From assembly GCA_025352125.1 (NCBI GenBank), contig JANXTZ010000013.1:101382-165381 (forward strand): a DNA stretch of 64,000 nucleotides. The letters are read 5' to 3'. Numbering within the stretch: the stretch's first letter is position 1; every line of letters begins with the position of its first letter. Below are positions 1 to 63,804 of this stretch, piece after piece. This DNA is from Deinococcales bacterium. Its GTDB lineage: Bacteria; Deinococcota; Deinococci; Deinococcales; JAAFIG01. A program made the translations under genes and the position numbers. The notes below the pieces were generated by a model, which was not told where the DNA came from, did no database searches, and worked only from the letters and a program-made list of their open reading frames with translations.

Positions 1-247
1 CCACGTAAGCATCGACGACTCGAACGCCAGCCACGCGTTCGGCGGCGGCGATGGAATTGCGGATTGAACTGATGGTGCGCTCTAAATTGACAACCACACC
101 GCGCTTGAGACCTTCACTTGGCACTGTACCTTCACCAATAATGTCGAGCACCCCGTTGGGGCTGACTTCACCGATAACTGTTGTGATTTTGGTCGTGCCA
201 ATGTCCAATCCGACCACGATTCTCGAGTTGTAACGATTGTCGGTCAT
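1..247 (-). CDS. ftsA: Cell division protein FtsA (N-terminal part, cut by window edge)
   Basis: The first 82 residues are visible. They carry the actin-fold phosphate-1 signature (VVGLDIGTTK) near residue 11, followed by an SHS2-like region with the GLKRGVVVN segment typical of FtsA. FtsA is the actin-like peripheral membrane protein that anchors FtsZ polymers at the division site. The start ATG (245-247) overlaps the ftsQ stop as ATGA, so it is the last visible gene of the dcw operon. ftsZ would be expected just beyond the window edge. The C-terminal amphipathic helix cannot be seen. Confidence 0.93.
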   Translation of the reverse strand, partial: MTDNRYNSRIVVGLDIGTTKITTVIGEVSPNGVLDIIGEGTVPSEGLKRGVVVNLERTISSIRNSIAAAERVAGVRVVDAYV

Positions 248-885
248 TGTTGGACACTCACCCCCCACGGATAGATGTTGATTTGTGCCGATCTTTGATC
301 GGCTTGGAGTATCTTGACACTTCCGCCCCATTTGAGCAAGGAAGCATACGAATCGGTCCAGATTCGCAGGTCTTTGAGTTGGATACGGTAGCCTTGCGGC
401 GTGAACCGAATCTCGAGTGGTTTGAATGGTTTCATCAATAGGGCTATCTTAAGCGCTTCGGGCAGTTTGGAGCTATCCCAACCCGTTAATGTTGGGCTGA
501 CGGTTGAAGCGTCGGGCAATTCCATGCCGTCAAGTGCAACGGTCATTCTCGAGCCGTCTGCTTTGATTAGCGTGCCGACAGGTTCGCGTTCGATCAGTTT
601 GACCTCAACCTGACCTGGAAAATGCTTGATGATTCTTGCCTCGGCAATCCAGGGGCTGTCCTCGAGTTCTTTGGCACTGGCGTTCGATGCCCACAACCAC
701 GGGTTGCCACGCGAGATGCCGCTCATGTGCGCGACCTCTTTGGGACTAAGGTGCTTTGAACCCGAAACCAGCACGCCCCAGACGGGCAGCACAAACCTCG
801 AGGCGGCAAGCAAAGCGAATATGATAATCAGCAACGACATGCCCCAGGTCAGGTTTTCTTTGGTCGGTTTGATTGGGCTGGTCAT
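244..885 (-). CDS. ftsQ: Cell division protein FtsQ
   Basis: A 213-aa bitopic membrane protein of the divisome. It has a short cytoplasmic N-terminus, one membrane segment (about residues 14-32), then a POTRA-like domain (residues about 38-105, with the family features 'SPWIAEARIIKHFPGQVEVKLIEREPV' type strand order) and a beta domain. I chose the ATG at 885 because it gives the same 4-nt ATGA overlap with the upstream murB stop as other junctions here, and GGGGAAG sits just upstream. An ATG at 897 is possible. Role: links early and late divisome proteins together with FtsL. Confidence 0.88.
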   Translation of the reverse strand: MTSPIKPTKENLTWGMSLLIIIFALLAASRFVLPVWGVLVSGSKHLSPKEVAHMSGISRGNPWLWASNASAKELEDSPWIAEARIIKHFPGQVEVKLIEREPVGTLIKADGSRMTVALDGMELPDASTVSPTLTGWDSSKLPEALKIALLMKPFKPLEIRFTPQGYRIQLKDLRIWTDSYASLLKWGGSVKILQADQRSAQINIYPWGVSVQQ

Positions 886-1787
886 TGGCTTCCCCATATT
901 TCCACTTCGCGCTCAAGGTTCATTCCCAATTGAGCCTCGATGTTCGAGAGCAACTCGAGCACATCTTTGGCGCTGGCATTTCCTTGGTTCACCACAAAAT
1001 TACCATGTTCGAGTGAGATCATTGCGCCGCCGACCCTTGCGCCCTTCAAACCCGCTTGATCGACCAGTAGACCCGCCGAGAAACCCGTCGGGTTTTTCCA
1101 GGCGCAACCAAAGGTTCGTTGGTGTGGTTGTCCTTTTCTGGCATTGTCGGCAAGGTTCATGCGTTCTTGGACAATTTCTGGAGTCACAATCTCGAGTTTG
1201 AGGCGAACCCTTGTGACGATTCCCGCGCCGTTTTTGCCACGTGGGATGCTCGAGTTGCGGTACTGAAAACCAAGTTGATCAGGCGTGAAAATATGCACTT
1301 CGCCATCAACAAAAACCTCGAGTTGATAAATCGCATCCGCCATCTCGCCGTAACGCGTTCCCGCGTTCATGCGCACCGCACCGCCGACTTGGGCGGGAAC
1401 GCCCCATAAACCTTCAATACCCGACAGACCGCGTTGCTGGAGTTGCCGCACCAAACCTGGAATCGGTTTTGCCGCGCCAACCCAACCCGTCACGAGATGC
1501 GTGTCGCTCGAGAGAACTGGGTCAGGTTCGAGATCACTTTTGGAATATTCGCCGCCAAGTCGAATCACGCGATCATCAACACCAGAATCGGAGACAATCA
1601 AATTCGAGCCTCCGCCCAGAATTCGGTACGGCGCAGACGTGGCTTCCCGCAATTGCTCGAGGTCATGGACGACCCACAATTCAGCAATCCCGCCAACCCC
1701 AAGCGTGGTGAAACTCGAGAGGTGCACCAATCGCGGCGCTCGAGCGAAACTGGGTTTGGTCATGACCACACACGACTCCTTCATCAC
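882..1787 (-). CDS. murB: UDP-N-acetylenolpyruvoylglucosamine reductase MurB
   Basis: 301 aa. A flavoenzyme that reduces UDP-GlcNAc-enolpyruvate to UDP-MurNAc using NADPH in the cytoplasm. The FAD-binding signatures ILGGGSNLIVSD (about residues 56-67) and GVPAQVGGAVRMNAG (about 130-144) are clear. The C-terminal catalytic segment reads GCAWKNPTG, so the usual catalytic serine position is a cysteine. The start is taken as GTG at 1785-1787, overlapping the murC TGA as GTGA. ATGs at 1784 and 1763 are alternatives; the latter is preceded by AAGGAG 12 nt upstream. Confidence 0.93.
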   Translation of the reverse strand: MMKESCVVMTKPSFARAPRLVHLSSFTTLGVGGIAELWVVHDLEQLREATSAPYRILGGGSNLIVSDSGVDDRVIRLGGEYSKSDLEPDPVLSSDTHLVTGWVGAAKPIPGLVRQLQQRGLSGIEGLWGVPAQVGGAVRMNAGTRYGEMADAIYQLEVFVDGEVHIFTPDQLGFQYRNSSIPRGKNGAGIVTRVRLKLEIVTPEIVQERMNLADNARKGQPHQRTFGCAWKNPTGFSAGLLVDQAGLKGARVGGAMISLEHGNFVVNQGNASAKDVLELLSNIEAQLGMNLEREVEIWGSQ

Positions 1788-4260: not shown

Positions 4261-4333
4261 TGAGCTGGCAACTCCTTGGGTACGACTCGAGCTTTGGATT
4301 TCGTGCAAGATGTTTAAAATCATCCATTCGTGC

Positions 4334-4362
4334 GTAAGGGTGAACACAAGGTTCACCCTTAC
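4334..4362. promoter_or_regulatory. Perfect 12-bp intercistronic hairpin between ftsW and murG
   Basis: The arms GTAAGGGTGAAC (4334-4345) and GTTCACCCTTAC (4351-4362) are perfect inverted repeats around the five-base loop acaag. There is no T-run on either side, so it is not a standard terminator. It sits in the larger of the two real gaps in the dcw operon. It may be a REP-like palindrome or an mRNA processing or attenuation point. Confidence 0.6.
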
Positions 4363-4371
4363 ATCAGGTTG

Positions 4372-12531: not shown

Positions 12532-12533
12532 TT

Positions 12534-13278: not shown

Positions 13279-13295
13279 CTGGCTTGGGTTAAAAT

Positions 13296-14498: not shown

Positions 14499-15011
14499 AT
14501 GAAGCAACTCGAACCCGCCACCCTGGATCGACTTGATCGGGTGTTGTCGCAACTTGCGGCGACCCTCGAGGTGATTTACTCGAGGCGGGTGCTCGAGGAT
14601 GTGCTGGGCGATCTCGAGGAGGTCACGGCGGCACAACTTCGCACCTTAAAATTGCTCTCGGGTGAACCGATTGACGGTGCGGGTTTGTTAATTGGCGCGA
14701 TCAGTCAGGGTTTGAGAATTTCGTATCCTGCCGCCAGCAAAGCCGTGGATCGTCTGGTTGAACGTGATTTAGCCGAACGCAAGCGCAGCGACGACGACGC
14801 GCGTCAAACCTTTGTGCGCCTGACCAAGCGGGGGCATGAGGTGATCGAGAAAGTCAGGCTCGAGCGTCAAGCCAAACTCGAGCGGGCATTGCAACATATT
14901 GGCAATGAAACAGCCATTGCCGAGTTTACAAAGTTGCTCGAGGATTTTACGAATCAATCGGTGCTAGACGCTCAAGATGCGCTGGAGGTCAAACTCGAGA
15001 CTGGATTTTAA
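14499..15011 (+). CDS. MarR-family transcriptional regulator
   Basis: 170 aa with a winged helix-turn-helix: the recognition region (SYPAASKAVDRLVERDLAERKRSDDDARQTFVRLTKRG, about 74-111) shows the MarR DxR wing. It starts six bases after mtnN and is probably in the same transcript. Its ligand is unknown; position suggests it may regulate the luxS-mtnN unit or itself. Its 3' end overlaps the convergent gene at 15008 by 4 nt. Confidence 0.85.
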   Translation: MKQLEPATLDRLDRVLSQLAATLEVIYSRRVLEDVLGDLEEVTAAQLRTLKLLSGEPIDGAGLLIGAISQGLRISYPAASKAVDRLVERDLAERKRSDDDARQTFVRLTKRGHEVIEKVRLERQAKLERALQHIGNETAIAEFTKLLEDFTNQSVLDAQDALEVKLETGF

Positions 15012-32079: not shown

Positions 32080-32434
32080 GGGATTTTGAACGGGGCTGTG
32101 CGAAACCTCGAGAAGCCGATTCAACGTGTTGGCGCTCGGGTTTGCATTTTGGCGCGGTGAACAAACAAAACTTGCATACCAAATTGTGCAACGGCTTGAA
32201 CGCGTAACCCAAAAAAATGGCTTAAGATTTTGGTTCGTCGCTCGAGCGCAACCCATTTAAAGGCAGCCTCGGTTCAGTAAATAGAAGTGAAGTTTACTAC
32301 AATATCGGTTTTAAAAAAAACTAGAGTCTGTGTTAATCCGCGTTGGATTGGCACATTTATAACCCCATCTCGAGTCATTCGGACTCGGGTTTCGGGCGTG
32401 TATTTCATTTTTTGTAGTGGATTTTTGGAGATTT
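32080..32434. other. Intergenic region upstream of the NPCBM lipoprotein
   Basis: No gene recognised. AGTAAA/TTTACT arms at about 32275-32296 form a short inverted repeat ahead of the lipoprotein gene and may be a regulator site. Confidence 0.3.
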
Positions 32435-41731: not shown

Positions 41732-41748
41732 ACGCAATCCTAGCAGCG

Positions 41749-42756: not shown

Positions 42757-42797
42757 TTATATTTCTCGAGTTTCTTGATGACGATTTTTTATGATTT

Positions 42798-42820
42798 GGG
42801 GAGCGCATTGTGCGCTCCCC
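42798..42820 (-). terminator. Perfect 10-bp hairpin between binding-protein and permease genes
   Basis: GGGGAGCGCA and TGCGCTCCCC around a three-base loop. On the minus strand AAATCATAAAAAAT follows, so no T-run. It more likely reduces read-through or protects the upstream mRNA, giving more binding protein than permease. Confidence 0.55.
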
Positions 42821-42839
42821 TATTCAAATTAAACTGGAA

Positions 42840-44574: not shown

Positions 44575-46152
44575 CTACTGCTTGGAGATTTTTTCAAACC
44601 GAATCTGATTTTGTGCGTTGCGCAAGTAACCTTTGACGGCTTTGCTTAAAGTCACCGAAACGGTGGGTTGGAACAGAATCGCAAATGGTCCATCCTCGAG
44701 TTGCAGTTCGGTCAATTGCTTGTACAGCGCAGCGCGTTTGCTTGGGTTTGGCTCGAGTGCCGCTTTTTGCGCCAAGCTGCCCGCCGTTGGGTTGTTCCAG
44801 ACATTGCGCCACGCCAGGCTTTTTGCGCCGAAGTCGCTCATTGGGGTGGCGTTGCCGTCTGGATCGGGAAAATCCGGTGACCAGTCAACCAGCACCATCG
44901 TGGCTTTTTGGGCGCGGTAAAGTGGGTACAGTTCGGAATCGACCAGTTGCTTGATGTTGGCTTTCAAACCGATTTTGGCGAGATCAGACTGAATTTTGGC
45001 TGCCAGGTCGGCGCAAGGAATTCCTGCCAAGCACGCGCCCTGAGGCGTCAGCATGTCAAACTCGAAGCCGCCCTCTTTGCCTGCGGCTTTCAGCAGTTCT
45101 TTGGCTTTTTCGGGGTTCAGGTTGTACGGGGTTGCAGGGTTAAAACCAAACAAACCCGCCGGAATAATGGTTTGCACCTTGCGGGCGTTGCCGCCAGCCA
45201 AACTTTTGATGATACCGTCCTGGTCAAGCGCATAACGCACCGCCTGACGAACCCGAGCGTCCTTGAACGGGCTGGCATCGCCAACGTTCATGCCGAGGTA
45301 CTGAAGATTTAAGGAATCGGCTTTGTAAACATTGAATTTGCTCTCACTGGCTTTGGCTTTCACCATGTCTGGCGTTAAATTATCCGCAATGTCAATCTCG
45401 CCGCTCTCGAGGGCAATTTTTTGGGTGTTGGCTTCCTTGATCTCGCGCAAGATGACACGGCTGAGACGAGGCAGCAACCTCGAGTTCTTGTTGGCGTCCA
45501 AAACCACAGATTGGCTTTGATCCCAACGGTTCAAAACGTATGGTCCAGAACCCGCCGAGTTGCGTTTGAGCCAGTTGGTGCCATAATCGTTGTCCACAAC
45601 GTGGGTTTTGACAACTGCACTGTCCACAATGCCGCCGATGTTGAAGGTTAAGAGGTTCAGGAACGCGGCTGGGCTGGCGGTTTTTGGAAAGCTGACCTCG
45701 ACCGTGTTCTTGTTGACCGCTTTGGTGCTGCCGACTTTCATGTTGGCAACGCTGGTGAACAAAAATGAACCAGGTCCTTTCATGGCTATCGCGCGGTCGA
45801 AGGTGTAGACCACGTCGTCGCTGGTGACAGGGTTGCCCGAGGCAAATTTCTGATTGCGCAAATTGAATGTGACCTTCCAAACGTCGCCCGCGTCTTTGGT
45901 CGTCCATTTGGTCGCAATGCTCGGCTGGAGCGTGGACAAATCCTCGCCTTCAAATTTCACCAGCGTTTCGTACAGGTTGTTCGTGACCAAACTGCCCGCA
46001 AATTCGTAACTTTGACCAGGGTCGAGGGTGATCAGCCCAGAGAAATCTCCACCGTATATCAGGGTGCTCGAGCGGGAGTTCTGAGCCGTCACACCGACGG
46101 TCAACAATCCGATACCGAGCAGCGCTGCCACCGCACCCAAACGCTTGTTCAT
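44575..46152 (-). CDS. Family 5 solute-binding protein (peptide/oligopeptide), copy 2
   Basis: 525 aa, signal peptide ALLGIGLLTVGVTAQ. Same domain layout as copy 1, with nearly identical blocks such as NSRSSTLxYG, SPAAFLNLLTFNIGGIVDS and PDFPDPDGNATPMSDFGAKS. Differences cluster in the surface loops, so ligand preference may have shifted. The start at 46152 has AGAGGAG upstream; a 27-codon in-frame extension is rejected. First gene of the transport operon, with a promoter at 46250-46278. Confidence 0.92.
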   Translation of the reverse strand: MNKRLGAVAALLGIGLLTVGVTAQNSRSSTLIYGGDFSGLITLDPGQSYEFAGSLVTNNLYETLVKFEGEDLSTLQPSIATKWTTKDAGDVWKVTFNLRNQKFASGNPVTSDDVVYTFDRAIAMKGPGSFLFTSVANMKVGSTKAVNKNTVEVSFPKTASPAAFLNLLTFNIGGIVDSAVVKTHVVDNDYGTNWLKRNSAGSGPYVLNRWDQSQSVVLDANKNSRLLPRLSRVILREIKEANTQKIALESGEIDIADNLTPDMVKAKASESKFNVYKADSLNLQYLGMNVGDASPFKDARVRQAVRYALDQDGIIKSLAGGNARKVQTIIPAGLFGFNPATPYNLNPEKAKELLKAAGKEGGFEFDMLTPQGACLAGIPCADLAAKIQSDLAKIGLKANIKQLVDSELYPLYRAQKATMVLVDWSPDFPDPDGNATPMSDFGAKSLAWRNVWNNPTAGSLAQKAALEPNPSKRAALYKQLTELQLEDGPFAILFQPTVSVTLSKAVKGYLRNAQNQIRFEKISKQ

Positions 46153-46249
46153 AGGTTCTCCTCTTTTAGAATTGCAAGCTGTATGCGTTTGAAATGGAGC
46201 ATCTGTCCCTCGAGCGCACTTGCCGTTTTGCAATTTTTCTTGCTAGATT

Positions 46250-46278
46250 AGACTATCATTTTGAAATTTATTTTGCAA
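46250..46278 (-). promoter_or_regulatory. Promoter of the transport operon
   Basis: On the minus strand TTGCAA (46273-46278), 17 bases, TAGTCT (46250-46255). TTTTGCAAT occurs twice in this divergent region (from 46226 and 46271) and could be part of an RpiR site. For rpiR on the plus strand TAAAAT at 46301-46306 is a -10 candidate. Confidence 0.55.
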
Positions 46279-46346
46279 TCTCGAGCGTTGCGAAAAACCG
46301 TAAAATAAAGCCTTCAAACATCTCAAATCTCGAGATTGGAAAACAT

Positions 46347-47156
46347 ATGACCCTGCGCGAACGCATTGACCACAACACCAGCGAATTCTCGCCATCCGAC
46401 CACCAAATTGCCGCGCATTTTCTGGCAAACCTCGAGGCAACACTTTTACTTTCGGGCGCAGAACTTGCCAGCCAACTCGAGACCAGTCCCTCGAGCATCA
46501 CACGGTTTGCGCAGCGCCTCGGGTTTGAAGGTTACCCAGATTTGCGCCGCGCCCTGCGCCGCGAACTGCGCGAACAACAAGCGCCGTCCGTGCCAACCAT
46601 CAAAGAGGGCGTTTTTGCCGCCTACTGGCAGCGCGAGAAACAAAACCTCGAGGAACTCAGCCGCACCTCTGACATTTTGCTCGAGCGCGTCTGTGAGGTG
46701 CTGGCAACTGCAAGGCGCGTCTGGATTCTGGGATCACGTTCCAACAAAGGTCACGCCATTTTGACCCAAGAATTGCTCTCGAGCGTCCGCACCGAGGTCA
46801 GGCTGCTCGAGCCGAGCACCATGTTCAGCCCCGAAATTCTACTGGATGCCAGCAACGACGACACCGTGCTGGTTTTTTCGACGCGGCGTTACGCCAGGTC
46901 AAGCACCCAAATCGCCACAACTTTAAAAGCTCGAGGGGCAAGTATTTTGCTGGTCACGGACAACGGCGCATCGCCACTGCTGCCGCTGGCAAGCCATATT
47001 TTGCGTGTCCCAACCCAAGCCATCAGTCAATACGGCGCTTCGGGTTTGATGTCCAGCCTCGCGCACCTGCTGGTGATCGGCACGGCGCAACGGTGTGATA
47101 CCAGCCGACGGGAACAACTCGAGGGATTGCTGGAAGAATTGTCTGTTTTTGAATGA
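46347..47156 (+). CDS. RpiR-family transcriptional regulator
   Basis: 269 aa. N-terminal helix-turn-helix (about 1-75, with SGAELASQLETSPSSITRFAQRLGFEGYPDLRRALRREL) followed by a SIS phosphosugar-binding domain (about 110-260, with RRVWILGSRSNKGHA and VLVFSTRRYARSS). RpiR proteins sense sugar phosphates. Divergent from the ABC operon, so it probably controls it, which raises the possibility of amino-sugar peptides (muropeptides) as substrates. Start at 46347 chosen by the RpiR N-terminal consensus. Confidence 0.88.
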   Translation: MTLRERIDHNTSEFSPSDHQIAAHFLANLEATLLLSGAELASQLETSPSSITRFAQRLGFEGYPDLRRALRRELREQQAPSVPTIKEGVFAAYWQREKQNLEELSRTSDILLERVCEVLATARRVWILGSRSNKGHAILTQELLSSVRTEVRLLEPSTMFSPEILLDASNDDTVLVFSTRRYARSSTQIATTLKARGASILLVTDNGASPLLPLASHILRVPTQAISQYGASGLMSSLAHLLVIGTAQRCDTSRREQLEGLLEELSVFE

Positions 47157-47208
47157 AAACTCACTCGAGGTACGCCATTTGCTCGAGTCAAAATCTTGTG
47201 CCATGACG

Positions 47209-47214
47209 TATGCT
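47209..47214 (+). promoter_or_regulatory. rqcH -10 box (leaderless type)
   Basis: TATGCT eight bases before ATG 47223. Confidence 0.4.
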
Positions 47215-47222
47215 GCCTGCCT

Positions 47223-48788
47223 ATGGAAGGTTTGTTCATCGCCAAAATTCTCGAGGAATTGGAAGTGCTTTTACCGGCACGCAATTTGGGTTGGGTGTTC
47301 CCAAACGAAACCACCGCCGCCTTGTTGCTCGAGCCTGTCGCAAAAAATGCCAAGCCTTTCAATTTGGTCTTCGCATACCGTCCGCCAACACCAGCCTTGT
47401 ACCTGAACCGCGACAAGCTCGAGGGCAGTGCGGTCAATGCGTTTGGACGGGCGCTCGATGGTCGGGTCAAGGGAACGCTCGAGCGGGTGTCGCAACTCAA
47501 ACTTGACCGTGTGGTGATGCTCGAGTTTGCGGACGCGCCAGGTTTTGTAGCGCTGCCTGCCGTGCGGGTGCTGTTCGAGTTGACTGGACGGAACACCAAC
47601 ATGCTGATGCTCGAGCCTGGGACGGGTTTTGAGGGCAAGATTCTGGCGGCGGCAAGAGAAATTACGGGTGACCGAAACCGTTACCGACAAATACGCACAG
47701 GTGGACAGTACACCGCGCCGCCACCGTATGAAAAGCTAGACCCCAGAACCGCCAGCGACGCCGAATTGCGCGAAAAACTGATTGACAAACCAATCCTTGG
47801 TTGGGCGAAACAATTGGATGGCTTGGGTCCGAGTTTGGCGCAAGAACTCGAGTACCGTGCTGGAAAATTTGAGGGCACAGAATTTGAACGCGGCTTGATT
47901 GCACTCAGGGCGTTGACCGCAAACCCCAGCCTCTCGAGCGAGCAAAGCTTGTCCGACCAAGCCCGAGGTCGCGCCAATGAAGACCGCCTGATTGCCCTGC
48001 GCAGGACTTTGCGCGAACCGCTCGAGAAACGCGCCAAATTGCTCGAGAAGCAACTTGAAGATGTCAGTCGCGCCCGCGAAGCTTTATTGGAGGCTTGGCA
48101 AGCCCGAGAGTGGGCGGATACCCTGCTGGCATTCGTGCGCGACGTGCCGACAGGAATCTCTAGCGTCAACCTGCCCAATTTGTACGGCGCTGGCGAGGTG
48201 CAGATTCCACTCGAGCCAACCCTTGACACCGCCCAGAATGCCAACAAATTGTACGCCCGAGCGCGACGCCGCGAGGAGGTTTTTGCAAAACTCGAGGAAC
48301 GCGAACCCGCATTGCTTCAAACCCAACGTGAAATTCTGGACTTGCTGGCGACGCTCGAGACCGCCAACATCAGCAAACTCGAAAAACTGCTCGAAGCCGA
48401 CGACAACAACCGCGAAGCGCCACCCGCCGTCGGAATGCGCTTCAAGACCAAAAGTGGCTTTGAGGTGTTGGTTGGACGCAACGACAAAGAAAACGATGTT
48501 CTGACCCACAAGCTGGCGAAAAGCATGGATGTCTGGATGCACGTTCAGGGCTACCCTGGTTCGCACGTGATCGTTCGCGCCAAAAACCGTGAAGTGCCAT
48601 TTACCGACATTCTCGAGGCTGCCAGCATCGCCGCGCATTTCAGCAAAGCCAAAGGCAGCACCAATGTTCCAGTCGATTACACGCTCGCCAAAAGCGTTTG
48701 GCGTCCCAAGGGTGCTCGAGCGGGAGCGGTGTACTTTAGCCATCAAAAAACGGTGTTTGTCGAACCTGGCTTGCCTGGAAGGGTTTGA
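47223..48788 (+). CDS. rqcH: NFACT-family RqcH / fibronectin-binding-like protein
   Basis: 521 aa. NFACT-N domain opens MEGLFIAKILEELEVLLP and includes GRALDGRVKG. A long helical central part (about 240-400) contains coiled coil. The C-terminal NFACT-R domain carries VWMHVQGYPGSHVIVRAK, with the DVWxHxxxxPGxH signature. RqcH binds stalled 50S-peptidyl-tRNA and adds alanine tails in ribosome quality control; older annotation is fibronectin-binding protein A. Start 47223 chosen because the family begins at this Met and TATGCT lies upstream. Confidence 0.92.
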   Translation: MEGLFIAKILEELEVLLPARNLGWVFPNETTAALLLEPVAKNAKPFNLVFAYRPPTPALYLNRDKLEGSAVNAFGRALDGRVKGTLERVSQLKLDRVVMLEFADAPGFVALPAVRVLFELTGRNTNMLMLEPGTGFEGKILAAAREITGDRNRYRQIRTGGQYTAPPPYEKLDPRTASDAELREKLIDKPILGWAKQLDGLGPSLAQELEYRAGKFEGTEFERGLIALRALTANPSLSSEQSLSDQARGRANEDRLIALRRTLREPLEKRAKLLEKQLEDVSRAREALLEAWQAREWADTLLAFVRDVPTGISSVNLPNLYGAGEVQIPLEPTLDTAQNANKLYARARRREEVFAKLEEREPALLQTQREILDLLATLETANISKLEKLLEADDNNREAPPAVGMRFKTKSGFEVLVGRNDKENDVLTHKLAKSMDVWMHVQGYPGSHVIVRAKNREVPFTDILEAASIAAHFSKAKGSTNVPVDYTLAKSVWRPKGARAGAVYFSHQKTVFVEPGLPGRV

Positions 48789-48893
48789 ACCAGATTCTGG
48801 TTTGCAGTGAATTGTTGGTTCGCTCGAGTTACTTTTGTATTCTGAAATCAGGATTTTGTTGACAGTCAAGTCCTCAGTACGCCAAAACACCAA

Positions 48894-48923
48894 TTGTTGT
48901 CCCATCATTTGCACTGTTAAACT
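48894..48923 (+). promoter_or_regulatory. Promoter of the serine hydrolase gene
   Basis: TTGTTG (48894-48899), 18 bases, extended -10 TGT-TAAACT (hexamer 48918-48923). A GGGGG ribosome site precedes the ATG. Confidence 0.4.
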
Positions 48924-51779: not shown

Positions 51780-51805
51780 ACATTAAATGTCCAGAAAAAC
51801 GTTCA

Positions 51806-51940
51806 TCAATCCCAGAAATTGATCTCAATTCTCGAGCGACCATCTTTAAAATTCTCTGGCACATCCCATAACGTTTTACCGCAACGGTACGCGAGCGTGG
51901 CGACGGTGTGGCGCAGGAATTCTCGAGCTTCACGGTTCAT
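51806..51940 (-). pseudogene. Remnant of a DinB-like gene (44 codons)
   Basis: The first 30 residues (EAREFLRHTVATLAYRCGK, then DVPENF) match the start of DinB-like proteins that begin 'EAR-FLRHTLATLAYRGGKAL'. After about residue 32 the similarity ends and the frame stops at 51806-51808. It begins inside the last 11 bases of polB. Could be a decayed gene or a real small peptide translated by coupling. Confidence 0.5.
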
Positions 51941-54254
51941 GGTTTGACTCCTTTGCAGTGACCCAGTTAAGGCTTAAATGCTCGAACGGCGGGTCGAACA
52001 AACTGCTCTGGACATTCGAGCGGAAAACTTGCGGGAACACGTCGGGCGTGAAGGCTTTCTCGAGGCGTTTGACGTAGGTGCGTTCAAACAGCGCCACGTA
52101 ATACGGCACGTCGTAATCTTTGGCAAGCTCGAGCGGGTTGCTGGTTTCTTCGTCGATGGGCAAGAGTTTGGATTTGCCGTTAAGGCGGTAAAAACGGATT
52201 CGTTCACCTTTTTGCCAGGTTTTGCCAGTCTCGAGCATGGCTTCGTAGGCGGCTTCTTTGAGGTTGTGACGGCTTGCGGCATAATTGTCGGCACTCTTGC
52301 TGAGTTTCGTGCGGGTCGCAACCTCGCCAGCCGTATAGACTCGAGCTTGCAAGTTTTCGATGACGGTTAAATACGCGTTTCGAGCGCCAATCACGTCACC
52401 CTCGAGAATGCAACGCACAGAAATCTCCAAGAATTTTGCGCCGAACGGTTCAAAGCGGCTCGAGCGGAAGCCTGCGCCGCGCAAGATCATGTTGCCCTCG
52501 AAAGTTAGCAGCGCGTAATTTTTAATTTCATGCGAGAGCATGGTCTTGTACAAGTTCTCAAACTCGAGTTTGATACCGTCTGGCAAGCTGTCACTGATTT
52601 GCGTGACCAAAGCTCGAGCGTCAAATTCATTCCAAGTTTCGGGCAGCGCAAAGAACACGCCGTCGGTGTCCGCCTCGATCAGTGTCATGCCAGCTTTGCT
52701 GAGTTGTCGCGTCACGTTCTCAAGAATTTGCCTGCCGTGCAAGGTGATCGCGTCGGCGGCTGGACGGTCGGCAAAAAGTGCCATTCGACCCGCCGCCAGA
52801 TAGCCGTAAGCGCTGTTGACAATCAGTTTCATGGCGGCTTGCATCGCGTCGGCATGGGCAAAAGCTGGCGTTTCTCGAGCGGCATCTCTCGCCAATTGCT
52901 TAAACTCGAGGCGTTGGGTGGTCAGCGAATTCACAATCTCGAGCATCGCACCGAGTTCGTCGCATTCGGGTCCGATCTTGAAAGCCCGCATGATGCTGGG
53001 ATACAAACTGGCAATATCGGCTTTGACCACGTTTTTTGCCACGCCCCTGGCATAAAGCGCCACCGCGCCGCCCTCGTGTGGTTTCTCGAGGTAGACGCGA
53101 CTGGATTTTGGCAACGCATAACCTTCATGCAGGTACGCCCGCACCAGCATCGGCTCGAGAATACCGGTGGCTGTTCCCGCGCTGGCAACGCGTTCAAAGC
53201 GGCGCGGCGCAAGTTTGGAAAGCGCGAACGAGGCGGGCATCAGGCGCTGAGACAACCTGTCCACCTCGCGGACATCCTCGAGGGCGTAACGCCGCACGCG
53301 GTCGGGGTTGCGGCTGTATTCGAGGGCAATCTCTGAGCCTGTGATGTACTCGCGGTTTGGGGCGGCAAGTTTGTAATGTTTGGCAACGTCTTTCAGTCGG
53401 TGACTTGGGAGTTCTCGGGTGACAAAATCGTGCCGCCAGACGGCATCGAGCGTGTCAATCAGTTCTCGACCATTCACGCCAAAACGGTCGTTGACATTTT
53501 CGCGGCGCAACAAGGTCGGCGCTGGGGCGCGTCCAAGCTCGAGCCTGACACTTAACTCTCGGGCGCGGTGCTCCAGATACGGCAGGTCAAATCCGATCAG
53601 GTTGTGATTCTCGAGCACGTCAGGGTCACGTTCCTGAATGATGCGCACAAGCTCACGGATGGCTTGGGCTTCGTCGTCGGGACTGGGCGCTTCGAGTAAA
53701 ACCTCAAAACCGCTCGAGTCACGCACCGCAATCATGATGATGCGCCCGAGGGCTGGGTCGAGCGAGGTCGTCTCGAGGTCAAATTGCAGTCGTTTCAAAT
53801 CGCTAAACTCGAGGTCACGAAAGAACGTGCGTCCCGACTGCATCAGATATTGTTCCGCCGCACCGACACTGTAATACCCTTCCAGTTCAGCGACGTTGTT
53901 GGCAGTCAGCCCAGCCTGTTTTGCCCCCTCGAGAATCGCGCCGCGCAGCACTCTGGAATCTCGAGCCGTGACCAAATATTTGTACCTGCCGTTTCCACGC
54001 AGTTTTTGCACTGTGAACTCACCGTCACTCGAGTCGTGTTGCAACGCGTTGCCAAGGTGCGATAAATGATCGAGGTGTTCTGCAAAAATCCAGGGGCGGT
54101 AACGGTCATGCTCGAGAATCAGCTTGCCATTTTCGCGTCGCCAGACCAGCACCTCGCCGCCATTGCCCGTCCAGAGGCTGACAATCCCTGGGGTGGTGTC
54201 CCAACCAAAAACCCACTCTCGGTTTCGGTTGGTGGTTTGCAAGTCCAGGCTCAT
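51930..54254 (-). CDS. polB: Family B DNA polymerase (Pol II type)
   Basis: 774 aa. 3'-5' exonuclease motifs: Exo I FDLETTSLDP, Exo II DVLENHNLIGFDLPYLEHR, Exo III YALEDVREVDRL. Polymerase motifs: A as ADIASLYPSIM, B as KLIVNSAYGYL, C as EADTDGVFF. All catalytic acids are present, so proofreading and synthesis should both work. Start 54254 is chosen by TATGCT nine bases upstream and by the point where sequence becomes polymerase-like; a 110-codon reading further upstream runs through repeat DNA. Likely role in repair or lesion bypass. Confidence 0.92.
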   Translation of the reverse strand: MSLDLQTTNRNREWVFGWDTTPGIVSLWTGNGGEVLVWRRENGKLILEHDRYRPWIFAEHLDHLSHLGNALQHDSSDGEFTVQKLRGNGRYKYLVTARDSRVLRGAILEGAKQAGLTANNVAELEGYYSVGAAEQYLMQSGRTFFRDLEFSDLKRLQFDLETTSLDPALGRIIMIAVRDSSGFEVLLEAPSPDDEAQAIRELVRIIQERDPDVLENHNLIGFDLPYLEHRARELSVRLELGRAPAPTLLRRENVNDRFGVNGRELIDTLDAVWRHDFVTRELPSHRLKDVAKHYKLAAPNREYITGSEIALEYSRNPDRVRRYALEDVREVDRLSQRLMPASFALSKLAPRRFERVASAGTATGILEPMLVRAYLHEGYALPKSSRVYLEKPHEGGAVALYARGVAKNVVKADIASLYPSIMRAFKIGPECDELGAMLEIVNSLTTQRLEFKQLARDAARETPAFAHADAMQAAMKLIVNSAYGYLAAGRMALFADRPAADAITLHGRQILENVTRQLSKAGMTLIEADTDGVFFALPETWNEFDARALVTQISDSLPDGIKLEFENLYKTMLSHEIKNYALLTFEGNMILRGAGFRSSRFEPFGAKFLEISVRCILEGDVIGARNAYLTVIENLQARVYTAGEVATRTKLSKSADNYAASRHNLKEAAYEAMLETGKTWQKGERIRFYRLNGKSKLLPIDEETSNPLELAKDYDVPYYVALFERTYVKRLEKAFTPDVFPQVFRSNVQSSLFDPPFEHLSLNWVTAKESNHEP

Positions 54255-54263
54255 TCTGTTCTC

Positions 54264-54269
54264 AGCATA
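54264..54269 (-). promoter_or_regulatory. polB -10 box (leaderless type)
   Basis: TATGCT on the minus strand, nine bases before the polB ATG. Confidence 0.35.
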
Positions 54270-54270
54270 C

Positions 54271-54400
54271 CGCACTCTATGGACCAAAGAAGCGACCATG
54301 CCCGTCAGGTGCATTTTATGGTCAAGAAGCGACCATGCCCGAAGCAATCCCGCCCCAAGCTGTATTTTGGGATCAAGAAGGTGCATTTTATGGTCAAGAA
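54271..54400. repeat. Four 21-bp direct repeats upstream of polB
   Basis: Copies related to GGTGCATTTTATGGTCAAGAA at 54271-54291 (diverged), 54308-54328, 54359-54379 (diverged) and 54380-54400. The first two are each followed by GCGACCATGCCCG. Each contains TTGACC or TTGATC on the minus strand. Start-to-start spacing is 37, 51 and 21. They could be binding sites of a regulator acting on polB or on the divergent gene. Confidence 0.7.
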
Positions 54401-54514
54401 AAGCATATGATACTCGAGAAAATCCATGCGCAAATCTCAAACTTTCACATACACAAATCAGCCTGGGGTATCGGTTCCTTCTGATCTTCACGACATCAGT
54501 GCGGCGCACCCGCA

Positions 54515-55273
54515 ATGAATCTCGCTCGAGGATTGATCGTTCTTGTTCTGGCTGCCATCGTCCCGATTTTGAGCCTCGCCGCACCCAAAACCGTTGACAA
54601 CGGCGTGCAAATTCGTCAACTCGAGTTTGGCGGCAACAAATACGCGGTGGTCAGTGTTGACTTGAAAAAGGTCAAGCTCAAAATGTTCTGGAAAGACAGT
54701 CAAAACCAACCGTTCAAAACCTTTCAAAAACTCGAGCGACAACTTGCAAAAAGCGGTGTCAAACTGCTGGCAGCCATGAACGGGGGAATTTTTGACAAAT
54801 CTTACGCGCCGCTCGGTTTGCAGGTTGAGCGCGGGCAACAACTGCATCAACTCAATGCTCGAACCAAGGCGTTTGGAAATTTTTACATGCAGCCAAACGG
54901 GGTTTTCATGCTAGGTGCGGGCGGCGCGAAAATTTTGAGCACCCAAGAATTTATTCGCACCCAACCAAACGCACTCGAGGCGACACAATCCGGTCCAATG
55001 TTGGTGCAAGACAACAAAATCAATTCCAAATTTCAAAAAAACTCGAGCAACCAACTTGTGCGCAACGGCGTGGGTGTTCAAACCGGCTCGAGTGTTCATT
55101 TGGTCATCAGTCAGAGCTGGATCAGTTTTTACGACTTTGCCGCATTTTTCAAAGACGTGCTGCACTGCCCAAACGCGCTGTATTTGGACGGCAATATTTC
55201 GGGTTTGTACATGCCAAACTCGAGCTTTGACAGCCTGGGCGATTACGCTGGCATCATTGGTGTGGTGCAGTAA
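54515..55273 (+). CDS. Phosphodiester glycosidase (NAGPA/YigE)-family secreted protein
   Basis: 252 aa with a signal peptide (LIVLVLAAIVPILSLAA, cleavage about residue 24). The NAGPA domain shows LAAMNGGIFDKSYAPLGLQV (about 88-107), SGPMLVQDN, RNGVGVQ and CPNALYLDGNISGLYM. In mammals the fold removes GlcNAc from phosphodiester; in bacteria these proteins are thought to act on cell-surface sugar phosphates. Divergent from polB across the repeat region. Confidence 0.85.
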   Translation: MNLARGLIVLVLAAIVPILSLAAPKTVDNGVQIRQLEFGGNKYAVVSVDLKKVKLKMFWKDSQNQPFKTFQKLERQLAKSGVKLLAAMNGGIFDKSYAPLGLQVERGQQLHQLNARTKAFGNFYMQPNGVFMLGAGGAKILSTQEFIRTQPNALEATQSGPMLVQDNKINSKFQKNSSNQLVRNGVGVQTGSSVHLVISQSWISFYDFAAFFKDVLHCPNALYLDGNISGLYMPNSSFDSLGDYAGIIGVVQ

Positions 55274-55346
55274 TCTCGGGTTTACATTTGACCCATCACC
55301 TGAACCTCCGTTTTGAGTGATTGTTTGATTGATGTTGCCTGAAAGT

Positions 55347-55402: not shown

Positions 55403-55424
55403 CCCCTAGCTCGAGGAGCGAGTC

Positions 55425-59156: not shown

Positions 59157-59206
59157 GTCTTTTAGCCTTTGGTAGATTTCATGTGACACGGTAAACTCGA
59201 GTTTGT

Positions 59207-62200
59207 ATGGAGTTCACCAAAAAAGACATCAATGATTTTTACACCGGCGCGGTCTTGACCAGGGCGCGGAAAATTCGTGCCGATAAAAAAGTAAAACGCT
59301 GCGAAATCACCGAAGATGGTTTGATCGTGGGCAAAGTTCGTGGCTCGAACGGTGAACTGTACGAGCAAAATATTGCCGTTTACGAAGACGACGGGGCGTT
59401 CTCGGTAGATGACGAATGCTCATGCCCAGTCGAAATTGAATGCAAGCACAGCGCCGCCGTGTTGCTCGAGCTTCTTGACCGTCAAGGGTTTATCAAAGCT
59501 GTGGCTTTTGAACCACTTGAGGGTTCAAAAATGGCAAGTGTTGAGCAAATGTTGAAAACCTTGCAAGCCCAGGTCTCGAGCAAAGCTGAAAAACCAAACA
59601 AAAAGACGCAAGCCCAATCTGTACAACAGGGCATCAATAACATTGAAATGGGAAAACCCAAAACCGAACCTCTGCCGAGCGAAATCAAAACCTGGTTTGG
59701 CAAACTCGAGCACGACACTCAACCCGAACACGACGACGTAAATTTCAAGCACACGATGTTGTTCGTGCTCGAGTTGAACACGTCGCGCAGCAACATCACC
59801 AGCGTCACCGTAGAGTTTATTGGGGCAAGACTGAACAAATCGGGTTTGGGCGAACTCAAACCCTTCGAGTTCAAAGGACGTTTTGACAACCTGCCCGCCT
59901 ATGCACAGCGCGACAGTGAACTCTTGCGCATGTACATGGCGTGCCGTGACCCGCTCGGTTACGCCCCGTCGGGAGCGCTCGAGGATGCGCCACTGACCCA
60001 AGAATTCATCAAGAGACTCCTCGAGACTGGGCGTTGCTACTGGCACGAAGTCAAGGGCGAGGCTTTCAAACTTGGTGCTGCCCGAGCCGCGAAAGCCTTG
60101 TGGCGCGTGGATGCCAGGGGGGTGCAACGCGGAGGTTTTGAAGCCGAACCTGCCGCGACGCTCGAACTTCCATTCTCGCCGCCGTGGTTTGTGGACACCC
60201 AAAGTTTAGAGCTTGGCGTGCTCGAGACAGGAATTTCCAACCGAGTGGCAAAAACCTTTTTGAATGTGCCCGCCCTGAAACCAGAACTTGTGCCCGCATT
60301 TTTAAGTCAATTCGATGCCAAGTACAAAGGCACGCTGCCCGCCCCCAGGATTTTTGAAGAGCGAATCAGCGAAGAACCGTGCGTGCCCGTCATCAAACTC
60401 TTCTCCAACCAAGTCAAATTCGATTGGTCGGGTTTAAATAAAAACCTCGAGTCCTTGACCCTCGAGTTTGAGTACGGTGGAACTCGGGTCATGCCGCGAG
60501 ATGGCAGCCGCTTGCAAGTCTTCCGTGACGGCGTGCTGTACTCGAGCGCCAGGGACGAGCGCACGGAGTTAAGCGCCTTGAAAAGTTTGCAAGCCTTTGG
60601 TTTTGTTGGCATCTCGAAGGTCGTGCCGTCGTACTGGATGTCGCCAGGGCGCGAAAATCACTTGGCGATTCTGGGCGACCCCAAAACCGCCCGCGATCCA
60701 GAGTGGCTCAAATTCGTGACCGACGAAATTCCACGCCTCAAAAACCTTGGCTGGAAGGTTGAGTACGACAGCAATTTCAGGTTCAACATTGCCCAAGCCA
60801 GCGAATTTTACGGCAACCTAGAAGACGGTGCGGGCTGGTTCGGACTCGAGCTTGGCGTGATCGTGGACAGCAACCGCGTCAGTTTGATCCCGCTGCTGGT
60901 GCAGCTTTTGCGCGACAACACCGCCACGCTTTCCAGCGAACAACTCGAGAAACTGCCCGACAACACCATGTTCTACCCCAAACTTCCAGACGGACGTTTG
61001 CTGCAACTGCCGATTGCTCGCGTTCGCGCCATTCTGGGCGTGCTGCTCGAGTTGTACATGGGCAACAAACTCGAGGGCGGCAAGCTGCGCCTGCCGATGC
61101 TCGATGCGGCGCGACTTGCCGAACTCGAGAAAAGCCTTGAACTTCGTTGGTTTGGTGACAAGAAAATGCTCGACCTGGGCAGGAAACTCCAGAATTTTGA
61201 GGGCATCAAAACCGTGGACGTTCCCAAATCGCTGACCGCCGATTTGCGCCACTATCAATTGCAAGGTCTGAGTTGGCTGCAATTCCTGCGCGAAAACGAA
61301 CTCGGCGGCATCCTCGCCGACGACATGGGCTTGGGCAAAACCGTGCAAGCCCTGGCGCATTTCGCGCTCGAGAAACAAGAAAAACGCGCCAAATTGCCGA
61401 TTCTGGTGATCGCCCCAACCAGCCTGATGACCAACTGGCGGCTCGAGTCCGAACGCTTCACCCCAAACCTGAAAGTGCTTGTGCTGCACGGCGCAGGACG
61501 GTTTGATGACTTTGCCAGAATTGGTGAATTTGATTTGGTACTGACCACCTACCCGCTCGTGCTGCGTGACCTCGAGCATCTGAAAAAGCACAAGTACCAC
61601 ATGCTTGTGCTGGACGAGGCACAGAACATCAAAAACGCCAAGAGCGGTGCCGCCAAAACCATTGCCAGCCTCAAAGCCAACCACCGCCTTTGCCTGACTG
61701 GAACGCCGCTCGAGAATCACCTTGGTGAACTCTGGAGTTTGTTTCATTTTTTGATGCCCGGGTTTTTGGGCGACGAGAAAAGTTTTAAAGAATTTTACCG
61801 CAATCCCATCGAGAAAAAAGGCGACAACCTGCGCCGCAATGCGCTCGCCACGCGGGTCAAACCGTTTTTATTGCGCCGCAGCAAAGCCCTGGTCGCCAGT
61901 GAACTGCCCGCCAAAACCGAAATCATCGAACGCCTCGAGCTGAGCGGTTCACAACGCGACCTTTACGAAACCCTGCGCACCAGCATGAGCGACAAGGTGC
62001 GCGAGGAGATCATGAAAAAAGGCTTGGCAAAAAGCCAGATCATGATCCTGGATGCGCTTCTCAAATTGCGCCAAGCCTGCTGTGACCCGAGGCTTCTCAA
62101 ACTCGAGGCAGCCCGAAAAGCCACCAACAGCGCCAAACTCGAGTGGCTGCAAGAAAACCTGCCGCAAATGCTCGAGGAGGGACGCAAGGTCTTGATCTTC

Positions 62201-62680
62201 TCGCAATTTGCCACGCTTTTGGGGTTGCTCGAGCTTGAATTGCAAACCATGAACGTGCCGTACTCGAAGTTGACCGGCGAAACCAAAGACCGTCCGCATC
62301 AGATTGACTCGTTTCAGTTGGGCGAGAACAAAGTCTTTTTGATCAGCTTGAAAGCTGGCGGCGTGGGTTTAAACCTGACCGCCGCCGACACCGTGATTCA
62401 CTTTGATCCGTGGTGGAATCCAGCCGCCGAGAACCAAGCCACAGACCGCGCCCACCGTATCGGACAGGACAAACCCGTGTTCGTGTACAAACTGATTGCC
62501 GAGGGCAGTTTGGAAGAAAAAATCTTGCTGCTGCAAGAAAAGAAAGCCGAACTGGCACGCGGGATTCTCGAGGGAGGGTTAACCTCGAGCACGGCATTGA
62601 CGAATGAGGATTTGAATTTCTTGTTTGCGCCACTTGGGGACTCGAGCGAGAAAAACTCGAGTGAAATCAAAGCAAATTAA
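59207..62680 (+). CDS. SWIM zinc-finger SNF2-family helicase
   Basis: 1157 aa. N-terminal SWIM motif CSCPVEIECKH (about 72-82). A long middle part (about 150-650) is a SNF2-associated domain. The motor starts near 685: LADDMGLGKTVQALAH (motif I), VLDEAQNIKN (II), LTGTPLENHLGELWSL (III), then LIFSQF, SLKAGGVGLNLTAADTVIHFDPWWNPAAENQATDRAHRIGQ (V-VI). SNF2 proteins remodel or translocate on DNA. TAAACT nine bases upstream of ATG is the only start signal. No partner gene is visible. Confidence 0.92.
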   Translation: MEFTKKDINDFYTGAVLTRARKIRADKKVKRCEITEDGLIVGKVRGSNGELYEQNIAVYEDDGAFSVDDECSCPVEIECKHSAAVLLELLDRQGFIKAVAFEPLEGSKMASVEQMLKTLQAQVSSKAEKPNKKTQAQSVQQGINNIEMGKPKTEPLPSEIKTWFGKLEHDTQPEHDDVNFKHTMLFVLELNTSRSNITSVTVEFIGARLNKSGLGELKPFEFKGRFDNLPAYAQRDSELLRMYMACRDPLGYAPSGALEDAPLTQEFIKRLLETGRCYWHEVKGEAFKLGAARAAKALWRVDARGVQRGGFEAEPAATLELPFSPPWFVDTQSLELGVLETGISNRVAKTFLNVPALKPELVPAFLSQFDAKYKGTLPAPRIFEERISEEPCVPVIKLFSNQVKFDWSGLNKNLESLTLEFEYGGTRVMPRDGSRLQVFRDGVLYSSARDERTELSALKSLQAFGFVGISKVVPSYWMSPGRENHLAILGDPKTARDPEWLKFVTDEIPRLKNLGWKVEYDSNFRFNIAQASEFYGNLEDGAGWFGLELGVIVDSNRVSLIPLLVQLLRDNTATLSSEQLEKLPDNTMFYPKLPDGRLLQLPIARVRAILGVLLELYMGNKLEGGKLRLPMLDAARLAELEKSLELRWFGDKKMLDLGRKLQNFEGIKTVDVPKSLTADLRHYQLQGLSWLQFLRENELGGILADDMGLGKTVQALAHFALEKQEKRAKLPILVIAPTSLMTNWRLESERFTPNLKVLVLHGAGRFDDFARIGEFDLVLTTYPLVLRDLEHLKKHKYHMLVLDEAQNIKNAKSGAAKTIASLKANHRLCLTGTPLENHLGELWSLFHFLMPGFLGDEKSFKEFYRNPIEKKGDNLRRNALATRVKPFLLRRSKALVASELPAKTEIIERLELSGSQRDLYETLRTSMSDKVREEIMKKGLAKSQIMILDALLKLRQACCDPRLLKLEAARKATNSAKLEWLQENLPQMLEEGRKVLIFSQFATLLGLLELELQTMNVPYSKLTGETKDRPHQIDSFQLGENKVFLISLKAGGVGLNLTAADTVIHFDPWWNPAAENQATDRAHRIGQDKPVFVYKLIAEGSLEEKILLLQEKKAELARGILEGGLTSSTALTNEDLNFLFAPLGDSSEKNSSEIKAN

Positions 62681-62724
62681 AACTTGCCAAACGTGTCATT
62701 TCATGATTCAAATAATCACAATTT

Positions 62725-62730
62725 TACGAT
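62725..62730 (+). promoter_or_regulatory. -10 box of the WD40-like gene (leaderless type)
   Basis: TACGAT six bases before ATG. Confidence 0.45.
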
Positions 62731-62736
62731 GAACGC

Positions 62737-63804
62737 ATGACCAAAAAAACCTTGTCCTTTTGCATTTTCGTTTTGATGTTCCGATCCTGGGCATTGGCTT
62801 GGGACAATGGGCGACTGACTTTTCCTGAAACTCAACCCGTGCCGCTCGAGATTCAAAAAGCGCTTCAAGACGCCAAACCCGATAAACAACCAGAATTTCC
62901 TGTTAAATCAGATGATGGCAAGTTACAAGCGGAACCACTAAAAACCGCAACAACTCTCAAAAATCAAGCCGACATTCTATTAATTCAAAACGGTCGTCAA
63001 ACCATTATTAAAAATTCTCGAGTTGATGATTTGTACAAAGATGTAAAATCGCAAGATCAATCTGGTTTGTACTTCATTGGTTCATATTACTCGAGCATCA
63101 CATCACTTTTATTTTCACCAGATGGCAAAACACTTTATGCTGGAACGTATGGTGGTGGAATTCGTGTTATCGACGTCGAAACGCGCCAAGAAACCAAATT
63201 GCTCATAGACCCGAACATTCTACATGGGGGTTTGGCGCATCAAGGTAGAGTCAACTTACTTTGGCGCATTAAAAATCCAGAACAACCAAATCAGTGGTGG
63301 TTGGTCAGTGCGGCTCGAGATGCAACAATTAAAATTTGGGATGTTCAAACAAATCAGTTGCTCTCAAGTGCGGGTTTTCGCTGGGCAGTATCAAATTCTT
63401 GGAAACAAGACAATGGTGAAATCCTGGCAGCAGCGGGCAAAATGGCAGTGCGGATTGCGCCCATGCAGCACAAAATGATTCAAAAATATTCTGGTCATAT
63501 CAGTGATGTTGTTTCAATGGTTTATTTCAACAATCAACTTTGGACTCAATCATCAGATCAGACTGTATTGAATTGGGATATTCAAACCTCTCGAAGAATC
63601 ACAATGTACAGTCAGATTTTAAATGCTTCAATCAGCGCAGATGGGCTAAAGATAGCAGTTCGATTTGGCGATGAAAACTTCAAAATTTTCAACTCGAGTG
63701 ATGGAATTTTACAGACCACAGTACAAGAAAATTCGGACAATTTTAGCCAACCTTCTTCATTAGGTAGTGTCCTAAGTTTGACTGATTCTAACCATAGCTT
63801 CTAA
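62737..63804 (+). pseudogene. Secreted WD40-like protein, interrupted by an IS1-type element
   Basis: 355 codons as read. Signal peptide (FCIFVLMFRSWALA). Beta-propeller repeats from about residue 120: SLLFSPDGKTLYAGTYGGGIRVIDVETR, WWLVSAARDATIKIWDVQTNQLL, LWTQSSDQTVLNWDIQTSR, NASISADGLKIAVRFGDENFKIFNSSDG. From about residue 343 the frame enters the IS end at 63763 and stops, leaving an incomplete propeller. The remainder is expected beyond the element. Confidence 0.75.

Follow-up and report, generated by a model that had tools for sequence, protein, structure and literature searches.

The stretch of DNA analysed here (hereafter the window) comprises 64,000 nucleotides of a Deinococcales bacterium (GenBank assembly GCA_025352125.1, contig JANXTZ010000013.1, positions 101,382 to 165,381 of the forward strand), and the element in question is the palindrome CTCGAG, which recurs from one end of it to the other. 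An initial annotation had described CTCGAG as a highly iterated palindrome (HIP) across the whole window, and our recount bears this out: we found 438 copies, or 6.8 per kb with a range of 2 to 13 per kb, and the counts that it gave for the first two kilobases (6 in positions 1-1000 and 8 in 1001-2000) were exact. The expectation for the window is 17.3 copies from base composition, 11.5 from an order-1 and 28.3 from an order-2 Markov model; an order-3 model predicts 131.9, but the motif itself is included in that table. Twelve pairs of neighbouring sites lie closer together than 16 bp. The layout of the sites is given in Table 1, along with four genes or open reading frames of the window.

Table 1. 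CTCGAG sites and selected open reading frames in the 64,000-base window.
Feature	Position	Strand	Remark
Full set of 438 CTCGAG sites	222..63698		First 222-227, last 63693-63698; mean spacing about 146 bp
Densest 3 kb	45901..48900		31 sites
Sparsest 3 kb	41201..44200		11 sites
Largest gap between neighbouring sites	33579..34481		Starts 897 bp apart; within an NPCBM-domain open frame, 32417-34696
Rare tight group	14565..14597		Sites at 14565, 14579 and 14592
Glutaminyl-tRNA synthetase fused to a YqeY/GatB domain	37038..39395	+	Served to locate orthologous regions and as an aid in placing the genome
Open frame of 667 amino acids	16452..18455	+	No Pfam match
Family-B DNA polymerase-like protein	51930..54584	-	Carries an RNase H-like domain
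SNF2-type helicase	59207..62680	+	1,157 amino acids

The enrichment is not limited to the window. The genome that holds it (G000; 4.53 Mb in 84 contigs, 92.5% complete), which likely belongs to a relative of Truepera and Thermus, contains 28,178 copies of CTCGAG, which amounts to 6.2 per kb or one about every 160 bases, against only 9 copies of the reversed word GAGCTC. The Markov count that the initial annotation had proposed was run on 455,630 bases (the window plus 20 loci of G000) with the motif masked out of the background, and the 2,841 copies observed there compare with 117, 56, 50 and 86 expected at orders 0, 1, 2 and 3, respectively. A single short palindrome is thus in extreme genome-wide excess, 24-56x over the masked background and about 23x by base composition, and the count is nowhere near the order-3 expectation.

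The force behind CTCGAG works at the DNA level. When genes in the G000 sample were called as longest open reading frames, the three frames held 1,415, 390 and 570 sites, while 92, 16 and 37 were expected from the codons of the same proteins that do not touch a site; the fold excess is therefore similar in all three (15-25x), and the use of every frame that the initial annotation had claimed is borne out. Most sites are intragenic, although the density is higher outside genes (7.22 per kb) than inside called genes (6.07 per kb), so that coding and non-coding DNA are both enriched regardless of frame. Wherever the protein sequence permits a site, it is frequently present: CTCGAG fills 1,363 of 1,767 Leu-Glu positions in G000 (77%, versus 6% predicted from codon use elsewhere), 432 of 800 Ser-Ser, 353 of 905 [SPTA]-Arg-[GDEAV] and 107 of 399 Ser-Arg positions. 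The corresponding Leu-Glu values were 65, 61, 66 and 70% in the related genomes G001, G002, G003 and G012 (neutral 2-10%), 58% in G008 (neutral 16%) and 5% in G004 (neutral 18%). Taking the ratios between words one step apart as a balance of mutation and drive, and assuming stationarity, we found that the scaled drive came out at 2.3-5.3 for the five strongly enriched genomes, at 1.1-2.4 for G008 and at -1.2 to 0.5 for G004, with some of the ratios resting on 2-3 counts. The drive also reaches the proteins, as had been suggested: Leu-Glu occurs at 2.39x its expectation in G000 and Glu-Leu at 1.01x, which indicates that protein composition has been bent.

The genomic sample of the phylum consisted of 111 genomes of one order in five families (f1-f5), none of them recognisable as Deinococcaceae. 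Six genomes from two families, hereafter the strong genomes (G000-G003 of family f1, G012 and G016 of genus g11 in family f2; 58-94% complete), carry 5.9-7.7 CTCGAG per kb genome-wide. All four members of f1, which represent three genera, have 26,619-28,178 copies and 4-15 of the reversed word, and the two g11 genomes have 21,868 and 14,690. The strength of the excess is patchy among relatives: elsewhere in f2, G008 has 13,552 copies, while G004 avoids the word, with 683 copies against 1,525 of its reverse (observed-to-expected ratio, O/E, 0.32), which gives 0.3 per kb as compared with 6.2 in G012 of the same family. The sampled stretches of G000-G003 and G012 contain 5.2-6.2 sites per kb at 45-58% G+C, about half of those of G001 and most of those of G012 being surroundings of methyltransferase genes, and in each of these five genomes CTCGAG has by far the highest O/E of all 64 hexamer palindromes.

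A weaker excess extends further. In eight genomes of f3, f4 and f5 it is 2.4-19x at order 1, and CTCGAG ranks first or second by O/E among hexamer palindromes in seven of them; one of the eight (G062) was sampled over 7 kb only, and in another, G007, Leu-Glu occupancy is under the neutral value. The word is found at 3.8x its expectation on an Allomeiothermus silvanus plasmid, at 4.4x on an Oceanithermus profundus plasmid, at 2.5-4.7x in five loci labelled Thermaceae, Trueperaceae, Deinococcales or Deinococcota, and at 1.8x on Thermus thermophilus pTT27, where Leu-Glu filling (34 of 201) is under neutral. It is avoided on two Deinococcus plasmids (0.43x on D. radiodurans MP1 and 0.14x on that of D. 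psychrotolerans), and four loci of other phyla range from 0.3 to 2.2x. In a scan of viral loci (at least 120), 24 of the 25 densest had 58% G+C or more. Four of them, L324, L238, L292 and L247, hold 57, 24, 13 and 14 CTCGAG, respectively, with no GAGCTC in any, and a scan for sites flanked by A or T gave 10 loci with 0.3-1.4 per kb; no virus matching the present density at this base composition was seen among the matches listed. The L324 stretch has its 57 sites in 9.7 kb at 64% G+C. Our searches of the open-licence literature showed no earlier report of iterated CTCGAG or of HIPs in Deinococcota.

These distributions bear on two explanations. The first, a bias of mutation or codon pairing that involves no factor recognising the word, could draw on the wide occurrence of the weaker excess in the phylum and on an exclusion between neighbouring sites that is clear inside genes only (see below). 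However, it would have to raise one six-base palindrome 24-56x over background, alike in three frames and more densely outside genes than inside, to a level far above the other 63 in five genomes, while G004 of f2 avoids the same word; we consider it very improbable. The second would make CTCGAG the one palindrome that a resident restriction-modification system shields, many others being purged. Indeed, each of the five strong genomes sampled has 24-32 of the 64 hexamer palindromes at less than 0.2x, as against 8 in G008 and 7 in G004, but the contrast weakens in the eight genomes of lower excess (7-24 of 64, a number inflated by small samples). Moreover, protection would account for a lack of purging and not for an excess of tens of fold, and the strong genomes have no match to the XhoI endonuclease family, so this defence-linked explanation is also very improbable. 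As a side observation, GGCC is nearly absent from the sampled stretches of G000, G002 and G003 (0.04, 0.01 and 0.01 of the order-1 expectation). The extended form CCTCGAGG is avoided in f1 (20 versus 77.6 expected in frame 0 of G000, 0 versus 34.4 in G001) and is the main form of the iterated site in G008, where it accounts for 46% of sites.

The initial annotation had compared CTCGAG with HIP1 (GCGATCGC) of cyanobacteria and had inferred selection on the DNA itself, and both proposals gain support from the enrichment of every frame and of non-coding DNA, from the rank of CTCGAG as the top hexamer palindrome in the five strong genomes sampled and from the bent dipeptide usage. Like HIP1 and the alternative HIPs, it is a short GC-rich palindrome in huge excess, within genes and between them, whose strength varies among related lineages and is lost in some. 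It is nevertheless not HIP1 itself: the word contains no GATC, and CGATCG has a single site in 455 kb of G000. According to Elhai (2015; PMC4390886), HIP1 occurs at 300-2,700 per Mb with an O/E of 55-228 by base composition (Table 2 there), HIP1 and three alternative HIPs are tied to cognate methyltransferases, and the role of the sites in cyanobacteria is called a mystery. CTCGAG lies in a different phylum, is denser (about 6,200 per Mb) and has a lower O/E (about 23x), HIP1 being the longer word; a further difference is that no shared cognate methyltransferase was found among five Pfam families. By its excess, spread and patchiness, CTCGAG is HIP-like.

The precedent of the HIPs suggests an explanation in which a methyltransferase targets CTCGAG, near-matches being converted into sites and the sites kept through methyl-directed mismatch repair or some linked benefit, as Elhai proposed for the HIPs. 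Many methyltransferases are indeed present in the strong genomes. We searched 15 genomes for five families (PF07669, PF01555, PF00145, PF02384 and PF02086; PF05063 and rarer families lay outside the search) and compared all against all the 66 open frames found under matches in G000-G003, G012 and G008, each being the longest frame covering the match, with its strand unchecked and some frames entered twice. Among these 66 frames, none is common to more than two of the four f1 genomes above 40% identity, and the methylation site that had been offered as a possible cause is thus not supported by a shared gene. Sharing is piecemeal: G000 and G001 have in common an enzyme of 1,031 amino acids (72%) and one of the D12 type (58%), a D12 enzyme joins G000 and G012 (72%), a C5 enzyme is common to G002 and G003 (74%) with G012 as a third member (59-63%), G001 and G012 share a beta enzyme (66%) and a 1,350-amino-acid enzyme (48%), and three genomes, G000, G001 and G003, are connected at 28-39% by a type I-like methylase. 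G016, which is 58% complete, has no match in any of the five families. Assembly gaps, at 91-94% completeness, could hide one shared methyltransferase but hardly all. A conserved methyltransferase of a family outside the search, or unrelated replacements of the same specificity, may be involved. In four genomes the patchily distributed methyltransferase genes themselves hold 3.0-4.6 sites per kb and in a fifth, G012, 5.9; some of these genes have almost none, and the low counts likely reflect recent arrival. Recent import was also considered for two sparse stretches and was set aside: the proteins scanned there are of ordinary transporter and propeller types, together with an oxidase, and the low counts look compositional.

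The restriction-modification systems XhoI and PaeR7I recognise exactly the word CTCGAG. The XhoI endonuclease family (PF04555) has matches in 5 of 121 genomes, one of them broken, and none in the six strong genomes. Next to the XhoI-family genes lie two types of candidate CTCGAG methyltransferase, beta and gamma, so that enzymes of a suitable kind may exist in the phylum. Matches to the beta type in the strong genomes compared reach only 24-28%, apart from a single short piece (52%); the gamma type was found in 11 of 121 genomes at E<=1e-20 (8 close and 3 distant homologs), and its sole match in a strong genome is a distant one in G001. Neither does carriage of the gamma type clearly go with more sites: in genus g13 the density is 2,185-2,442 sites per Mb among the four carriers as against 1,387-3,072 among the 14 non-carriers, the carriers being slightly higher on average (Mann-Whitney p 0.08) while the two highest genomes are non-carriers. 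In genus g10, the XhoI-family carriers G018, G042 and G048 have 1,390-1,947 CTCGAG versus 3,640-4,718 in G010, G014 and G030, but composition may explain this scarcity since the reversed word is likewise scarcer (657-926 versus 1,496-1,945). Two related loci deserve mention: at G009:C1:1093889-1096226 (L395, L396) a broken XhoI-family endonuclease adjoins a gamma-type methyltransferase, and at G007:C9:59761-60462 (L019) the second half of a 604-amino-acid frame is 58-65% identical to the XhoI-adjacent beta methyltransferases. The Vsr repair family, searched for in 17 genomes, matched in G008 alone and in none of the six strong genomes, which gives no sign of a Vsr-driven excess. That G008 match adjoins a C5 DNA methyltransferase match (G008:C11:83962-85231), and G008 is also where CCTCGAGG is the main form of the site. 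An orphan CTCGAG methyltransferase is named for Nocardia in PMC4752239, which also gives ATCGAT for Nocardiaceae; we take it as a lead only, and the same word is clustered at dnaA there.

The turnover of sites bears on the same question. In the Leu-Glu context, and relative to variants two or more steps away, words differing from CTCGAG at one position are not generally depleted. The transition variants CTTGAG and CTCGAA are 2.0-9.5x in excess in G000, G002, G003, G012 and G008 (1.4 and 0.8 in G001), the transversion variant CTGGAG stands at 0.3-0.8 in G000-G003, G012 and G008, and CTAGAG is mixed (0.6-4.2). The class of distant variants is itself uneven (CTTGAA 1.3-2.7, CTGGAA 0.2-0.9), so the excess is only a tendency; with that reserve, turnover tends to resemble decay by transitions balanced by regain more than instant capture by a repair enzyme. 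This does not favour a methyltransferase drive, under which transition neighbours would be captured. Over all contexts in G000, changes at the centre of the word are rarer (CTTGAG 1.2-1.4x) than outer ones (TTCGAG 2.0-2.3x, CCCGAG 2.4-3.1x), as is also described for HIP1 in PMC4390886, and this speaks for such a drive; in the Leu-Glu context of the same genome, however, the central change is not rarer (CTTGAG 4.3x, CTCGAA 2.7x).

The initial annotation had recommended a comparison of relatives at synonymous positions. Among f1 orthologs, conserved four-fold codons share their third base in 31-44% of cases (0.35 over 23 pairs for G000/G002 and 0.38 over 11 pairs for G002/G003), a value close to saturation; even so, where the Leu-Glu pair is conserved, its site had a counterpart in 55 of 78 cases for G000/G002 and 28 of 32 for G002/G003, as well as in 28 of 35 for G000/G003, 21 of 32 for G000/G001 and 12 of 21 for G001/G002. 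Where the first genome lacked the site, the second carried it in 10 of 20 (G000/G002), 7 of 8 (G000/G003), 7 of 9 (G000/G001), 3 of 5 (G001/G002) and 9 of 15 cases (G002/G003). A Fisher test of positional memory, applied to two of these pairs, gave p 0.11 (G000/G002) and 0.054 (G002/G003). Positional memory is thus weak and any permitted position gets refilled; because refilling is nearly independent of history, the driver is likely still active in each lineage.

On a larger scale the sites are spread nearly at random. Pair distances are flat from about 50 bp to 1 kb, no selection for kilobase-scale spacing was seen, and distances show no helical phasing at 10.5 bp, the strongest peaks being at 14 and 16 bp; a segregation mark is therefore unlikely, since the sites are not clustered. 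Having more sites within 500 bp leaves Leu-Glu occupancy unchanged in G000 and G003, and in G002 it declines from 0.69 to 0.56. Nothing thus suggests that one site per kilobase would suffice, and this near absence of saturation argues against an uptake signal as well as against a strand mark for mismatch repair. The DNA uptake sequences of Neisseria and Pasteurellaceae are a well-known case of an iterated short word, and competence is well known in Thermus and Deinococcus. CTCGAG resembles those sequences in being short, iterated and accompanied by many one-off variants, and its spread over coding and non-coding DNA, with several such variants in excess, fits the molecular drive that biased transformation of competent cells would produce for an uptake or recombination signal. 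But CTCGAG is palindromic, far denser and hardly saturates with local density, whereas an advantage per fragment predicts a drop in occupancy, and 6 sites per kb far exceed one per fragment; an uptake signal is accordingly improbable.

At short range the sites exclude one another inside genes. Close pairs stand at 0.25, 0.35 and 0.53 of expectation at 6-8, 9-11 and 12-15 bp, and recover to 0.68, 0.84 and 1.04 at 16-18, 19-21 and 22-27 bp. For intragenic pairs, corrected for edges, the values are 0.24, 0.31, 0.42 and 0.56 at 6-8, 9-11, 12-15 and 16-19 bp, and 0.91 at 20-23 bp. With the protein held fixed, both positions were filled in 28 pairs at 7-8 bp (56.8 expected), 39 at 9-11 (107.1), 68 at 12-15 (154.5), 91 at 16-19 (142.0) and 147 at 20-23 bp (157.9). 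The shortage is repeated in the Ser-Ser and Arg contexts, and at 12-19 bp it has no equivalent among generic GC-rich 6-bp inverted repeats within genes (1.03-1.07). The exclusion under about 20 bp is thus real inside genes. It is not shown to be general: in the edge-corrected test on non-coding DNA, pairs are few below 12 bp (7 versus 20.5 expected at 6-8 bp and 13 versus 20.1 at 9-11) and not beyond. This is partly because CTCGAG is reused outside genes as arms of terminator-like hairpins. In non-coding DNA of G000-G003, stems of at least 8 bp occur in 41 of 104 pairs at 12-23 bp versus 25 of 203 at 48-79 bp, and 25 of the 41 carry a T-tract; when the fold of the window was predicted, pairing involved 21 of its 46 non-coding sites as against 59 of 200 control hexamers (p 0.054). 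The intergenic hairpin arms of the initial annotation do exist, therefore, but the majority of sites lie within genes.

We tentatively favour, as a possibility that falls short of being probable, the reading that CTCGAG is the docking site of a putative sequence-specific DNA-binding protein. Each copy would dock a protein that coats or maintains the chromosome, and weak selection would keep CTCGAG wherever the protein code permits. The protein would occupy its sites probably as a dimer, because CTCGAG is its own reverse complement; the benefit would accrue per occupied site, and the protein would be inherited vertically in f1 and in genus g11 of f2. This reading draws on the genome-wide excess at the DNA level, the nearly history-free filling of positions, the near absence of local saturation and the intragenic exclusion below about 20 bp, and also on the absence of a methyltransferase of the five families common to f1 and of a Vsr match in the strong genomes. 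A more elaborate form, which we regard as unlikely, is a sequence-programmed chromatin in which a putative dimer would sit on an array of CTCGAG with about 160 bp per site, each claiming some 20 bp, the genome and its proteins having been rewritten to supply the sites.

Several observations weigh against docking. No candidate binding protein was found, and cyanobacterial HIPs track methyltransferases (PMC4390886). Leu-Glu occupancy rises with local density in G001. The exclusion, which is indirect evidence for an architectural protein in any case, is not shown outside genes, where pairs reach 29 versus 26.2 expected (1.11) at 12-15 bp and 29 versus 25.5 (1.14) at 16-19 bp, and the reading was given less weight for this reason; divergent gaps alone, with 9 pairs versus 14.4 expected at 6-19 bp, are too few to decide. 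With the protein held fixed, pairs at 24-79 bp also stand at 0.86-0.93, so about one tenth of the shortage is unspecific. A deficit at 6-11 bp is likewise found for generic inverted repeats within genes (0.65-0.79), so that avoidance of hairpins accounts for part of the shortage at the shortest distances. Leu-Glu pairs taken alone reach p < 0.05 at 6 and 12 bp only, and the pooled weaker genomes show no deficit of pairs at 12-15 bp (18 seen, 1.10x). The main rival, a methyltransferase drive, has a better precedent than docking but no supporting gene here, and we hold it to be somewhat unlikely.

CTCGAG is a second HIP-like word, outside the cyanobacteria, in another phylum and without a GATC core. 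Its gradient from avoidance (two Deinococcus plasmids and G004) through weak excess to the extreme of f1 makes it possible to compare lineages and ask what recognises the word and which gain or loss of a gene switches the drive on, while Leu-Glu at 2.4x its expectation is a measure of how far a force acting on DNA can push proteins. If the docking reading is true, CTCGAG would be a counterpart to the unexplained HIP1 palindrome of cyanobacteria.

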